Source: Chloroflexota bacterium (lineage in GTDB: Bacteria > Chloroflexota > Anaerolineae > Anaerolineales > Villigracilaceae). From it: 53,553 nucleotides of DNA. The position numbers were made by a program, and so were the translations under genes. The DNA is taken from the NCBI GenBank assembly GCA_026390015.1, contig JAPLGS010000093.1:1-53553 (forward strand). The letters are read 5' to 3'. This document shows, in pieces, positions 48,896 to 53,553 of the stretch (position 1 is its first letter; each line of letters starts with the position of its first letter). Below the pieces are notes generated by a model. The model saw nothing but the letters and a program-made list of their open reading frames with translations, did no database searches and was not told the origin of the DNA.

Positions 48896-48926
48896 CAGCT
48901 GGCTGACACGGATCTGCCAGCTTGAC

Positions 48927-50177
48927 TTAAAACCTTTCCAACCGCATCGGACTTAAACTGAAAGATGGGGTTTGTCCATTGACCAACTCCGCTACAACCT
49001 GACCTGTGCCAGGTCCAAGCGACAATCCCAACATGGCATGACCCGTGGCGACAATAAAATTTTTGCAGCGGGATGAGCGCCCTATGATCGGCATTCCATC
49101 GGGCGTGACGGGCCGCAACCCTGCCCAAGTTTCTTTGATATCAAGTTTTTCATCGAGAACAATATATTCGCGGACGGAATTTTCGATGCGTTGAATCCAA
49201 ACAGGATTCGGCGTCAGACTGTAATTTCCCACTTCGAGACGACCCGTGAAGCGCAGGAGATTCCCCAGCGGCGAGACTGCGATCCTGCGCTCCCCGAGGA
49301 TCAAAGCCTGACGAGGCATTGGTTTGTTTGCGGTCATCGTCAGGCTGTATCCGCGCGCGGGTTGAATGGGAATGTTCAGCTTCAAATCGCGTGCGACAAG
49401 CGGGGTGAACGCGCCAGCGGCGAGAATGACCTGCTCGGATTCAAAATCCCCCGCATTTGTTTTAACTTTGGTGATCTTCCCGTTCATGGATTCAAATCCC
49501 GTGACGGATGTATTCTCGAACATTTCCGCGCCCATTGCGCGGACTCGTTCACTTAATAATTTAAGGAATACCGCGGGATTCAAATGCGCGTCACCTGTGA
49601 AATGGATGCCGCCAATCACATCACTCAGCGCGGCAGGCTCGACTTCATGTACTTTGGATTTATCGTACACATTTATCGGGATGCCATGTTTTTGCATAAA
49701 CTCGGCTTCGTGTTGTCCCGCATGGAAGCCTTCTTCGTTTTTGTATAAATTGAGAAAACCTTTTTCTTGATAAGAACAGTCAAATTTTTCTTCGGTGATG
49801 AGTTGTGCGAAATTCTTCGCGCTCAATTGACCAAGACTATTCAAGGGTGAGATCGCCCGTTGGACGTTCGCTTCATTACACGCCATCACGAATTGCAGCA
49901 GCCATGAAATATATTTCGGGTCGAGGCTGACCTTCATCCCAAAGGGACTGTGCGCGGGGTCGAGCATCCACTTGAGCGCGGAGGTTACCACTCCAGGCGC
50001 GGCCAGTGGAATGATGTGACTCGGCACGATATGCCCCGCGTTGCCCGAGCCGCTGCCTTTGCCGATCTCGTGTGCGTCGAGGATGGTTACTTGACGACCC
50101 GATCTCAGAAGGTAATACGCGCAGCTTAATCCCACGGGTCCGCCGCCAATTATTAATACATCATGTTTTGAATTCAT
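48927..50177 (-). CDS. FAD-dependent D-amino-acid dehydrogenase, probably D-hydroxyproline dehydrogenase
   Basis: 416 residues, DadA/GlyOx family. N-terminal FAD-binding motif VLIIGGGPVGLSCAYYL, then SGSGNAGHIVPSHI and a C-terminal GLRPVTPDGMPIIGRS with ATGHAMLGLSLGPGTG. As the last gene of a reverse operon with a hydroxyproline epimerase and a dihydrodipicolinate-synthase-fold enzyme, it most likely oxidises cis-4-hydroxy-D-proline to 1-pyrroline-4-hydroxy-2-carboxylate. The family alone would allow other D-amino acids. GGAG lies before the ATG; gap to the preceding gene is 52 bases. Confidence 0.85.
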   Translation of the reverse strand: MNSKHDVLIIGGGPVGLSCAYYLLRSGRQVTILDAHEIGKGSGSGNAGHIVPSHIIPLAAPGVVTSALKWMLDPAHSPFGMKVSLDPKYISWLLQFVMACNEANVQRAISPLNSLGQLSAKNFAQLITEEKFDCSYQEKGFLNLYKNEEGFHAGQHEAEFMQKHGIPINVYDKSKVHEVEPAALSDVIGGIHFTGDAHLNPAVFLKLLSERVRAMGAEMFENTSVTGFESMNGKITKVKTNAGDFESEQVILAAGAFTPLVARDLKLNIPIQPARGYSLTMTANKPMPRQALILGERRIAVSPLGNLLRFTGRLEVGNYSLTPNPVWIQRIENSVREYIVLDEKLDIKETWAGLRPVTPDGMPIIGRSSRCKNFIVATGHAMLGLSLGPGTGQVVAELVNGQTPSFSLSPMRLERF

Positions 50178-50229
50178 TTAATCTCCACAAGATTTTAACC
50201 TTTGACGAAGAAGAGTCAAAAGTTGAAAG

Positions 50230-51255
50230 TCAGATTCCATTCGCGAATGGGTCACGTTCATCCACCAAAATTGTCCCTTCGGACATTACCCATGCTTCGC
50301 CTGTAATGGTTGGGATAATATTTTTGCCCTCAACTTGCACACTGCCTTCGAAGATACTGCCGACGACACTTTGCTGTTTCCATATTTGACCTTCCACGAT
50401 TTTTCCATCGGCGAATAAGCAGGCGAGTTTTGCGCTGGTGCCTGTTCCGCAGGGCGAGCGGTCGTAGGCTTTGCCTGGGCAGAGAACAAAACTTTTACTG
50501 TCCGCTTCTGGCGTGGGGGCGAACAACTCAACATGGTCAACGTTCGCGCCGTTCGCGCCTGTGATTCCGTTGGCGGTCAACTGCTCGCGCACGCGCCATG
50601 AGAAATCAGTCAGCGCTTCGAGGTTGGACATGTTCACGTCCAAGCCGTGGTCGTGGCACAGGAAGAACCAATTGCCGCCCCATGCCACGTCGCCGTGAAT
50701 GGTTTTTCCATCCACTGTGACAGGAACGTGAGTCAGATGGCGGTAAGCGGGGATATTTTTGACGGAGACACGATTTGGATATATGTCATTGCGAGGGCGA
50801 TGCTCTTCGCCCGAAGCAATCTCCTGCTCGACGAGGGGGTTGCTTCGTCGCTCACTATCGTTCGCTCCTCGCAACGACACGGGGTGCAGAGTTGCCTCAA
50901 CAACCCCAACAGGAGTCTCCACCCGAATCACTCCAGGTTGGACTTTTCCCAGATATGCCAATGATGCAATGAGACCGATGGTACCATGCCCGCACATGCC
51001 GAGGTAGCCGACGTTGTTGAAGTAGATGACTCCAAACTGACAGGTCGGGTCGGCGGGCGCTACGAGCAATGCGCCGACGAGTACATCCGAGCCGCGCGGT
51101 TCGTTGAGGACAGTGGTGCGGAATTCGTCGTGGTCTTTTTTCAGGCGCGATAATTTATCCGCAACGGAACCAGCCCCGAGGTCGAAGGGAAGCGTTTCTA
51201 TCAGGCGGGTGGGCTCACCGCCAGTGTGTGAGTCCAAGAATGGGATTCGTTTCAT
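50230..51255 (-). CDS. 4-hydroxyproline 2-epimerase (proline racemase family) with an inserted repeat
   Basis: 341 residues from the ATG at 51255. It should interconvert trans-4-hydroxy-L-proline and cis-4-hydroxy-D-proline using two acid/base cysteines, seen as Cys88 (GMCGHGTIG) and Cys269 (SPCGTGT); both Cys mark epimerases or racemases and not the Thr-containing dehydratases. The start family motif is PFLDSHTGGEPTRL. Residues 125-160 are encoded by a palindromic repeat and have no family equivalent; without them the length is 305, close to normal. The insert lies in a loop before NRVSVKNIPAYRH. Whether the enzyme tolerates it is unknown. The open frame upstream of 51255 runs into another copy of the repeat. 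Confidence 0.88.
   Translation of the reverse strand: MKRIPFLDSHTGGEPTRLIETLPFDLGAGSVADKLSRLKKDHDEFRTTVLNEPRGSDVLVGALLVAPADPTCQFGVIYFNNVGYLGMCGHGTIGLIASLAYLGKVQPGVIRVETPVGVVEATLHPVSLRGANDSERRSNPLVEQEIASGEEHRPRNDIYPNRVSVKNIPAYRHLTHVPVTVDGKTIHGDVAWGGNWFFLCHDHGLDVNMSNLEALTDFSWRVREQLTANGITGANGANVDHVELFAPTPEADSKSFVLCPGKAYDRSPCGTGTSAKLACLFADGKIVEGQIWKQQSVVGSIFEGSVQVEGKNIIPTITGEAWVMSEGTILVDERDPFANGI
50785..50878. repeat. Palindromic repeat inserted in frame in the epimerase gene
   Basis: Begins GTCATTGCGAGG and ends CCTCGCAACGAC: 12-bp inverted ends with one mismatch. Internal matches include GAAGCAATCTC and TTGCTTCGTCG. It encodes about 31 of the 36 extra residues of the epimerase, with no stop codon in the reading frame used. 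A second copy lies at 51281-51372. Confidence 0.85.
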
Positions 51256-51280
51256 AGGGTAGACATCCAGAAAATTATAT

Positions 51281-51372
51281 CGTTGCGAGGAGGGTGCACT
51301 TCGCGACGAAGCAATCCCCAACTATGAGGAGATTGCTTCGTCGCAAAAAGCAAGAGCGCTCCTCGCAACGAC
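51281..51372. repeat. Second copy of the palindromic repeat, intergenic
   Basis: CGTTGCGAGGAG at the left and CTCCTCGCAACGAC at the right, with GCGACGAAGCAATC and GATTGCTTCGTCGC inside. It fills most of the 120-base gap between the deaminase/aldolase and epimerase genes, ending three bases before the stop codon of the former. As RNA it would form a long hairpin within the operon transcript. Confidence 0.85.
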
Positions 51373-51375
51373 ATA

Positions 51376-52248
51376 TTAGTCGAGGGTTTTGAAAATTTTC
51401 TCGAATTCTGCGCGGTCTTCAGCGGTGAGTGGAAGCAGCGGCTGGCGCGGATTGCCAACGGGGATGCCGAGTAACTCACATCCTACCTTGACCTTTTGCA
51501 GATAACTTCCGCTTTCAACATTGCGGAGCAGGGGCATTAATTTTTCCATGTGTTTGCGGGCGGTGACGAAGTCGTTGGCGAGCGCGGCTTCGAGAACGCG
51601 GTGATGTTCGAGCGGAGCGCAGGAGGCAGCGCCGCCGATCCAGGCGGTGGTGCCCCAGAGGAAATAATCGAGGGCTTGATCGTCACTGCCGCAGATGATC
51701 TGGTAACGGTCACCATAACGCGCGCGAATCCCATAAACGCGGGACATGTCGCTGGAGGCTTCCTTGATGCCGATGACATGCTCATATTTGGTCAGACCAT
51801 CCATCACCTCGAAGCCGACTTCGGTGCCGGCGCGCCAGGGGAAGTTGTAAAGCACGATGGGAATTTTGACGGCTTTGGCGATAGCTTCGTAATGCGCGAG
51901 CAGTTCGCGCTGGTTGGGACGTGAATACGGAGGGACGGCGACCATGAGCGCGTCATAGCCCATGCCCTCGGCGATCTGCGAGTAGCGGACAACATCTCGC
52001 GTGGCGCCAGAGTTGGTGCCTGCAATGAGTGTGACCCGCCCGTTGAGCTTTTCTTTGGTGAATTTGAAAATGTCCAGCCGTTCGGCTTCGGTGAAAGCGT
52101 AGACTTCGCCCGTCGTGCCGCCTGGGACGAGTCCTGCGATCTTATTGGCGATCAGATATTCGATCAGTTGTTCAAGGACGGGGTAATTGATGCTTTCATC
52201 CGCATTGAAGGGGGTGACGATGGGGGCGTAGATTCCTTTGAGTTGCAT
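51376..52248 (-). CDS. DHDPS/NAL-family lyase, probably 1-pyrroline-4-hydroxy-2-carboxylate deaminase
   Basis: 290 residues, TIM barrel. Seen: GGTTGEVYAFTEAER near residue 45, the Tyr in IVLYNFPWRAGTE and the Schiff-base Lys in VIGIKEASSD (about residue 162). By operon context it should convert the hydroxyproline dehydrogenase product to 2-oxoglutarate semialdehyde with release of ammonia. Family members with other substrates (dihydrodipicolinate, N-acetylneuraminate, KDG) cannot be excluded by sequence alone. First gene of the operon. Confidence 0.85.
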   Translation of the reverse strand: MQLKGIYAPIVTPFNADESINYPVLEQLIEYLIANKIAGLVPGGTTGEVYAFTEAERLDIFKFTKEKLNGRVTLIAGTNSGATRDVVRYSQIAEGMGYDALMVAVPPYSRPNQRELLAHYEAIAKAVKIPIVLYNFPWRAGTEVGFEVMDGLTKYEHVIGIKEASSDMSRVYGIRARYGDRYQIICGSDDQALDYFLWGTTAWIGGAASCAPLEHHRVLEAALANDFVTARKHMEKLMPLLRNVESGSYLQKVKVGCELLGIPVGNPRQPLLPLTAEDRAEFEKIFKTLD

Positions 52249-52476
52249 GTGAGACTCCAGTTGGAAAGTTTGAAGGTTACAGATTTAAAAAATAAAGATT
52301 GCATATTGTTTTTTATAGTAGAAGTGGGTAAGTATTATTTCGGGAGCGGCGGAGCTATTGTGACACGAATACCCATGAAGTAGAAACCTTCTAAATATCG
52401 GTGATTGTTGAGAAATAAAAAAAAGGAATCGCCACGCAGTTGCACCTGTATCTTCGATTGCCTCAGCGGCTTCGCG

Positions 52477-52525
52477 CGGCGGGTTTGCGAAGTGCCCATT
52501 TGGGTATCAGTGCTGGAGCCCCCTA
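52477..52525 (+). repeat. Direct repeat flanking the toxin-antitoxin module, copy 1
   Basis: Shares CGGCGGGTTTGCGAAGTGCCC, then GTATCA and TGCTGGA and CCCCTA with 53369-53417, in the same orientation. It lies in the 355-base gap between the hydroxyproline operon and the toxin gene; nothing else is recognised in that gap. Confidence 0.75.
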
Positions 52526-52603
52526 AAGGGGATATATGGCATAGGAAAATGCGGAGAGGGCGGTTGGTCATAAGGATGAAGGGGGAATGATGAAGGATGA
52601 ATT

Positions 52604-52954
52604 TTATTGTTTGGCGAAGCGGACTTTTTCTTCGGTGGCTACAACGAATTGATTGGGGAGGCGGTCTGCGTAAGAAGCCAGCAACTGCTTCAAGACATCG
52701 ATTTTATTTTTGGCGCGTTCATTATCCAAACGAAGCAGAATGACCCCGTGATGGGATTTATGCTCACGGTAAATCTGATCGCCGAAATCCTTGTCGTTTG
52801 TGATCAATACCCATTTTTCTTCAAAGGCTTTTTGAACAATATCGTTGTCGTCCATCCCTCTTGCAGAGTCGTAAACGGAGAAAACTTCATGCCCCTGCGC
52901 TTGCAGCCATTAGGCTATGGCAGGTCCCGTACATTCATCTACGAGGAAACGCAT
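52604..52954 (-). pseudogene. DUF5615 PIN-like toxin gene with a nonsense codon
   Basis: The full-length frame begins at the ATG 52954 with MRFLVDECTGPAIA, the usual DUF5615 start with its acidic residues. It hits TAA at 52910-52912, then continues in the same frame as WLQAQGHEVFSV and on through DDNDIVQ, LITNDKDFGDQI and GVILLRL to 52604. Family members have a sense codon, often Gln or Glu, before the Trp. Re-initiation at the ATG 52855 would give an 83-residue product lacking the first acidic site. It abuts the DUF433 gene as TAAATG. Confidence 0.85.
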
Positions 52955-53203
52955 TTACGCGGATTCCACTGAAAGCGGCATGAAGACAGTATTTTCCATT
53001 GTTTTGCTGGCGAACAAAATACATGCTTGAATATCGGCTTTGGTCAAGCATGTATATTCATCAATGATTTCTTGAAATGATGCGCCACGAGCCATAAGAT
53101 TGAGGATAAACTCAACTGTTAATCGCGTCCCTTTGATGACGGGTTTGCCAATCATCACTTTGGGGTTGATTGTAATTCGTTCGAGTAATTTTTTATCAGT
53201 CAT
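52955..53203 (-). CDS. DUF433-family antitoxin
   Basis: 82 residues. Typical DUF433 pattern: ITINPKVMIGKPVIKGTRLT then VEFILNLMARG and the Trp/Tyr-containing helix EIIDEYTCLTKADIQACI, a winged-helix-type DNA-binding fold. DUF433 genes commonly pair with DUF5615 genes as predicted type II toxin-antitoxin modules, and the partner follows directly. AGGAG lies upstream of the ATG. Confidence 0.88.
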   Translation of the reverse strand: MTDKKLLERITINPKVMIGKPVIKGTRLTVEFILNLMARGASFQEIIDEYTCLTKADIQACILFASKTMENTVFMPLSVESA

Positions 53204-53368
53204 TTCTACTCCTTTACAACTCTTGCAGGTATCTTACTTCCGAGAAGATTAGATGTCAATTGATTACTTTTCCACATTCCAAGCCGGCCTTGAGTAGAGT
53301 TCTTCTCCGCGCTAAAGGCGAGCAAACAATCCATGCTTCGGCGCGGAGTTTTTGATACAACTCCCGTA

Positions 53369-53417
53369 CGGCGGGTTTGCGAAGTGCCCGTCAGAGTATC
53401 AATGCTGGATTCCCCTA
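53369..53417 (+). repeat. Direct repeat flanking the toxin-antitoxin module, copy 2
   Basis: Same orientation as copy 1, 892 bases away, with a few mismatches. It lies in the roughly 300-base spacer between the antitoxin gene and the forward gene at 53505; the rest of that spacer has no recognised gene. Confidence 0.75.
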
Positions 53418-53472
53418 GTGGCGTGTTTGATAAGTAATTCAACATAGTCGTGGCACATTAACAAACTGTATA

Positions 53473-53512
53473 CTTCTCATACAAAATCATCGAAGGAGTT
53501 TTGTATGAGAAG
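53473..53512 (+). promoter_or_regulatory. Inverted repeat enclosing a ribosome binding site and start codon
   Basis: CTTCTCATACAAAA (53473-53486) is perfectly complementary to 53499-53512. The loop holds GAAGGAG and the right arm holds the ATG at 53505. Folded in mRNA this would hide the start codon, as seen for some insertion-sequence transposases, where it blocks translation of read-through transcripts. Confidence 0.6.
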
Positions 53513-53553
53513 ACGTGCGCCAAAAATCATAAAATTGAGTCGAACAGATTGTC
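53505..53553 (+). CDS. Start of a truncated gene, possibly an IS630-type transposase
   Basis: Only 16 codons are inside the window: a basic start MRRRAPKIIKLSRTDC after a good GGAG. IS630-family transposases often begin with a short basic stretch of this kind, and the upstream inverted repeat also fits an insertion-sequence end. The evidence is too short for a firm call. Confidence 0.35.
   Translation, partial: MRRRAPKIIKLSRTDC

Follow-up and report, generated by a model that had tools for sequence, protein, structure and literature searches.

Unrelated dispersed palindromic repeats at one turn of a predicted 4-hydroxyproline epimerase in related Chloroflexota

Rickettsia palindromic elements (RPEs) are dispersed repeats of 105-146 bp with terminal inverted repeats (PMC2229807), each of which is said to encode a conserved peptide (PMC10969869). 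Two of them, RPE-4 and RPE-6, have been classed as CGTC-tagged repeats (PMC3733652). In a study of R. japonica, all the Rickettsia orthologues compared had an insert in the same position, and the authors preferred a common origin for RPE-4, RPE-6 and RPE-7, with hotspots described as 'still not negligible' (PMC3767692). Whether genic palindromes represent one old insertion or recurrent hits at a hotspot was a question that the Rickettsia work left open (PMC3767692). Many REPs are located in replication and repair genes, and different REPs were found at about the same recB site in X. campestris and X. oryzae (PMC3733652). In the text of this last paper, 'Chloroflex' appears once, for GTAG repeats.

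The window, i.e., the whole 53,553-nucleotide stretch of Chloroflexota DNA analyzed here, includes a palindromic repeat of a family that we named A, located in frame inside a gene of the proline racemase family. The features of this region are listed below.

48927..50177, minus strand: FAD-dependent D-amino acid dehydrogenase-like gene (NF001933, 270 bits, below the 383-bit cut-off)
50233..51255, minus strand: predicted 4-hydroxyproline epimerase gene (proline racemase family), 341 aa, ATG start; stop codon at 50230-50232
50782..50883, minus strand: insert, codons 125-158, between ...ETPVGVVEATLH and YPNRVSVKNIPAY, delimited by comparison of 52 distinct orthologous genes and by pLDDT
50784..50879, minus strand: family A palindromic repeat, in-frame copy, 96 bp (nhmmer E 1.4e-25, with a model built from such inserts, the window insert included)
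50784..50796, plus strand: outer inverted end 1, TGTCATTGCGAGG, read directly
50867..50879, plus strand: outer inverted end 2, CCTCGCAACGACA, read directly; 12 of 13 positions complementary to end 1
51278..51374, no strand assigned: second family A palindrome, between the epimerase start codon and the DapA-like gene, from repeat searches
51376..52248, minus strand: DapA-family gene (TIGR00674, 215.6 bits; cut-off 206.15)

A sequence-only reading of this DNA had proposed a palindromic repeat with 12-bp inverted ends at 50785-50878, in frame and free of stop codons within the gene of an otherwise canonical hydroxyproline epimerase with both cysteines. The repeat was confirmed at 50784-50879 with ends of 13 bp, 12 positions of which match, and there is indeed no stop in the frame used. 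The 36 residues (125-160) that it was thought to add had to be corrected to 34 (125-158), a net gain of 28 residues over the 6-residue linker found in some relatives. Folding of 116 nt of the transcript strand yielded -47.1 kcal/mol, compared with a mean of -31.5 for shuffled sequences (z -4.55; 0 of 200 shuffles as low). A 141-base query over the repeat produced at least 46 match rows in its own genome at E <= 0.001, a number that includes the repeat itself and some places on both strands and comes from scoring 40 of 73 candidates. The folding score and the dispersed matches, taken together, indicate that the palindrome is more than a chance arrangement. The second family A palindrome lies upstream of the epimerase gene, at a distance of 22 bp from its start codon, and may affect the leader of the epimerase mRNA. 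No Rfam match was detected within 48900-53553 at E <= 0.1. Farther along, a 49-bp direct repeat (52477-52525 and 53369-53417, 86% identical) coincides with no match to A or to the second family, B, described below.

The 341-aa protein matched Pfam Pro_racemase (E 7.9e-81). Its top NCBIfam model was 4-hydroxyproline epimerase at 395 bits, below the 442-bit cut-off, a shortfall probably caused by the insert. Residues C88 and C269, which we take to be the catalytic cysteine pair of the family, were invariant in all 42 aligned sequences. The structure predicted for the enzyme had a mean pLDDT of 88, and its core fitted that of a solved hydroxyproline epimerase, PDB 4j9w, with a TMt of 0.96 and an rmsd of 1.8. 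The two cysteines and the modeled fold agree in identifying the window protein as a 4-hydroxyproline epimerase, which is a predicted activity, and the dehydrogenase-like and DapA-family genes are both likely its partners in hydroxyproline breakdown. The insert was predicted to be disordered: residues 128-156 had pLDDT values below 50 and are flanked by strands 117-123 and 161-166, so that they occupy a turn between two beta strands. The loop would be surface-exposed. In the alignment with distant relatives this turn is tight and PDGS-like. In one relative, L081, a different loop, aligned near window residues 247-252, is lengthened by APASTALSAEPV.

Family A, with the peptide pattern SLRG...PRND, had matches in 40 of the 41 genus genomes searched. 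Family B is an unrelated hairpin repeat of about 40 bp, read as SPLPxGEGLGVR. Among the matches listed, B-only matches away from the epimerase gene were present in at least 19 of the 41 genomes searched; there were none outside the epimerase gene in the window's own genome and two B matches in all in G008, a B carrier. An additional element, C, is the sole occupant in two genes and was also recognized, by eye, within the A insert of L117; no further copy was among the matches listed and C is thus a candidate dispersed element only. Further hairpins are nested in some A and B inserts and also present elsewhere in the genomes, the clearest being that of L039, with 91-98% identity over about 40-50 bases in G069, G064 and G016. 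No target-site duplication was evident at the 18 of 34 A and B insert junctions inspected by eye. Two genes from non-sister species, L034 and L041, have a composite A insert in common that is 95% identical over 119 bases, with flanks that are about 82% identical.

Orthologues were obtained from 57 genus genomes, 37 of which have the enzyme at E <= 1e-40, from a wider genome collection (55 loci) and from further fetched stretches. When the occupants of the turn in the 37 genomes were assigned by insert sequence, A was found in 19 (including G062, degenerate, and G031, split by contig ends), B in 13 (including the frame-broken G017), C in one (G064) and a short 6-residue linker in four (G022, G025, G030 and G063). 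The turn was therefore filled in 33 of the 37 genomes, in 32 of them by A or B. After merging identical genes, the set consisted of 52 distinct genes with a recognizable turn (20 A, 14 B, 2 C and 16 short linkers); eight distinct Rubrivivax-like genes with a turn that did not fit the pattern were dropped, loci that were partial or more distant escaped the pattern, and one gene, L118 (from G062), was called A from its ends alone. The position of the insert is identical in all carriers, and on the genus side its length ranges from 13 to 43 aa. Thirteen genes branch outside the genus, 11 with a short linker and two with B (L093 and L095). L093 (3001-4062), an Anaerolineales epimerase gene, holds B at this turn as a tandem of three units (47 aa). 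The comparison of orthologues, which had been suggested as a check, did not reveal the same insert without repeat DNA in any of the 52 distinct genes: all of them hold repeats or short linkers, apart from those with C, whose dispersal is not established.

A tree was built from the flanks of the 52 genes without the insert (one gene, 921 columns). The four occupant states need 18 changes on this tree; A requires 14 changes, 10 of them forced by supported branches, and B requires 11, nine of them forced. As few changes were needed in about 80 of 500 label shuffles, both for A and for B, so the occupant labels are hardly clustered on the tree. The window gene, which has A, and its closest relative, that of G008, which has B, are 93% identical and yet hold different occupants. 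AU tests of three groups, chosen after inspection of the tree, rejected a single clade in each case: p-AU was 8e-75 for A, 1.5e-4 for the 12 B genes of the genus side and 0.005 for four linkers of the KNEAGE type. Insert and flank distances were compared in 19 of the 20 A genes, leaving out L118, and were uncorrelated (Mantel r -0.125; 3776 of 5000 permutations as high), whereas the 5' and 3' flank distances correlated with each other (r 0.553; 1 of 5000 permutations as high).

One of the 20 A inserts is degenerate; the other 19 are all read in frame 0 at the left outer end and in frame 1 at the right. The inner-left motif is found in frames 0, 1 and 2 in nine, seven and three inserts, respectively. 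With three reading frames in use for the interior of A, there is no conserved peptide; judging from these sequences, family A is conserved as DNA and not as peptide. The SLRG...PRND frame is open in all 16 epimerase A copies that match the both-ends pattern, in 39 of 77 other strand-copies compared, and in 11 of 28 from the window's own genome. In these numbers both strands of one palindrome can count, and the copies compared had been chosen because they resemble the epimerase insert or in the study of other genes. The pattern used to collect the 52 genes requires an unbroken frame, and for this reason frame integrity was judged instead from the 37 genus genes: 35 have a single uninterrupted frame, contig ends split the gene of G031, and that of G017 is broken within its B insert. 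The dN/dS values for the window gene and that of G008 were 0.042/0.499 before the insert and 0.020/0.178 after it, which indicates purifying selection on both sides. A pseudogene was judged unlikely in view of these values and of the open frames, with a single broken gene and a single contig-split gene among 37. An assembly artefact was also judged unlikely, considering that inserts are present in single-contig genomes (B in G021, A in G026) and in assemblies from many projects.

The own-genome survey covered the best 30 of the 46 rows, which represent 29 distinct places because one was seen on both strands; all own-genome tallies refer to the copies retrieved by searches, a part of the total. 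Two of these 29 places are in frame within a long ORF with at least 60 open codons on each side, one in the epimerase gene and the other in an AddB-family gene. A was found at one loop of the AddB-family gene in three of seven close genomes (G000, G033 and, as a decayed copy, G034), and in frame at one loop of a radical SAM gene in three (G078, G017 and G020) of the 30 loci read, out of 52 genomes that have this gene. In-frame capture of A is not unique to the epimerase gene. The epimerase turn is the most often filled of the three loops, the other two having been found because they hold A; the sorting of repeats inside and outside ORFs is biased by the loci fetched for intragenic copies and gives no rate. 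In-frame B-like repeats occur at several places, in addition to the A site, in long ORFs of the AddB-family gene (L135 1195-1233, L136 1162-1197, L137 1155-1195 and 2473-2508, L139 2110-2148). The radical SAM loop (L165-L192) contains other variable linkers in many genomes, e.g., KSKVNGDLRPSTFDR and KVDKLKPANLPTFKR, which may also be repeat-derived. We also considered the repeats as MITEs of a Y1 (IS200/RAYT-like) transposase. Y1 matches exist in 55 of 57 genomes, and at the best-scoring 30 of these loci A was present in two, compared with four of 30 radical SAM control loci, three of which are the radical SAM gene's own inserts; B was present in three of 30 and one of 30, respectively, about 1 kb from the gene. 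No link between A and Y1 genes was found in these loci, where the repeats did not show the placement beside the transposase gene expected of such a MITE.

We propose, with a probability of about 0.72, that the window insert is a copy of a dispersed palindrome lodged in a beta-hairpin turn, where it forms a flexible loop, and that A and the unrelated B came to occupy this turn in many independent events, with broken copies removed, open ones tolerated and no sequence-specific role for the peptide. According to this proposal, dispersed palindromes would be repeatedly copied into, or replaced at, one tolerant loop of the enzyme and translated as a flexible loop, and even closely related genomes would differ in their occupant. 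Frameshifting or stop-containing copies would be lost because the enzyme is under purifying selection, and open copies would be tolerated. The short linker seems to be mostly replaced rather than interrupted. Several B copies have a nearly identical right junction, which hints at a preferred target or at the replacement of one palindrome by another. The same junctions could also speak against repeated insertion, if they reflect fewer events than counted. Two more observations are in tension with the proposal: inserts that are more alike than their flanks could be due to insert exchange or to a common active subfamily, and B carriers need not be rich in B, as seen in G008 (two matches in all); the window's own genome has none listed outside the gene.

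Tolerance alone does not explain why 33 of 37 genomes have an occupied turn, given that two of the 29 own-genome places (best 30 of 46 rows) are in frame within long ORFs. A stronger version, which we consider rather doubtful, is that the epimerase turn is a true landing site where a DNA-level process, and not mere tolerance, inserts unrelated palindromes and swaps hairpins in nearly every species; if so, one protein loop would be rewritten in nearly every species. The same disproportion would be expected if selection, acting on stability, assembly or regulation, favored an extra loop for which any open hydrophilic sequence serves. This explanation is unlikely, as the peptide is not conserved, the lengths vary between 13 and 43 aa on the genus side, four of the 37 genomes lack the extra loop and the insert is predicted to be disordered. 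Somewhat less likely still is that recombination in the central part of the gene carried a few original insertions from species to species. Some non-sister species resemble each other more in the insert than in its flanks (G013/G029, 0.92 vs. 0.82; G000/G078, 0.88 vs. 0.81), and the local identity of B2-subtype genes is raised within 150 nt of the insert (4 of 300 permutations as high). However, this was the only one of 12 tests (types A, B1, B2 and short; windows of 45, 90 and 150 nt) to show it, the other 11 having no notable rise (at least 62 of 300 permutations as high), so the exchange of gene middles is apparently not the main cause. Finally, one ancient insertion inherited by the whole clade and then diverged, the view preferred for RPE-4, RPE-6 and RPE-7 (PMC3767692), would account for the common position and for sub-motifs shared by some A inserts, such as SRNVEE in three genes, but is strongly disfavored by the unrelatedness of A and B, both of which exist elsewhere in the genomes, by the rejection of a single clade for either, by the lack of correlation between insert and flank distances and by the near-identical 18-nt linkers kept in four genes.

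Repeated filling of the turn, the explanation that we prefer, bears on the question raised by the Rickettsia elements: the two views can be told apart where a single site in a well-sampled genus holds unrelated families, and the outcome favors recurrence. The epimerases also constitute a natural series in which a single turn of one enzyme varies between 6 and 43 residues in length and differs in sequence. Such a series is suitable for direct measurement of the cost or benefit of insertions and represents a natural test of the entry of repeats into proteins.

The sequence-only reading had likened the insert to the Rickettsia elements that create new peptide segments inside genes. The likeness in kind holds: as described in the accessible text, RPEs, especially RPE-4 and RPE-6, are like A in being dispersed palindromes of about 100 bp with a CGTC-type end tag, found in frame in a conserved enzyme gene. 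A is dispersed and palindromic as RPEs are, with 13-bp ends, and at 96 bp it is slightly shorter than their range; it is likewise found in frame in genes for conserved proteins (epimerase, AddB-family and radical SAM). The notion of one element making one new peptide segment fails, since unrelated repeats are found at the same turn in different species and A is read in three frames. Unlike the RPEs as portrayed there, A has no conserved peptide, its host belongs to the Chloroflexota, and unrelated families share one site without phylogenetic memory. The comparison with the Rickettsia repeats was by description, and only the tag and an ATGAC-containing end are in common. With the CGTC-tagged REP super-family, as far as the available text of PMC3733652 describes it, A shares the outward CGTC/TGTC tag followed by AT, the paired inverted units, the presence of units inside coding genes and no transposase association found. 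By eye, many A copies have TGTCATT or CGTCATT at their outer ends, some with GTT in place of ATT. The defining stem of 8-9 bp with a 4-5 nt loop (PMC3733652) was absent in three single A units folded as DNA; folding of the complete L064 palindrome gave a z of -7.75. The tails after GCAAT, by eye, are mostly CTCC or CCCC and not CCA. The nearest parallel to the turn is the recB site of Xanthomonas, where different repeats also occupy one site of orthologous genes; the recB case, in the text available, concerns two species (PMC3733652), while the epimerase turn involves two unrelated families in 32 of 37 genomes and a third element in one more. We found no published report of the epimerase case in a literature of which our coverage was partial, and we do not claim its absence from print. 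In-frame palindromes, as the accessible parts of these papers show, were already known; the epimerase case is of the same kind, with far more turnover.
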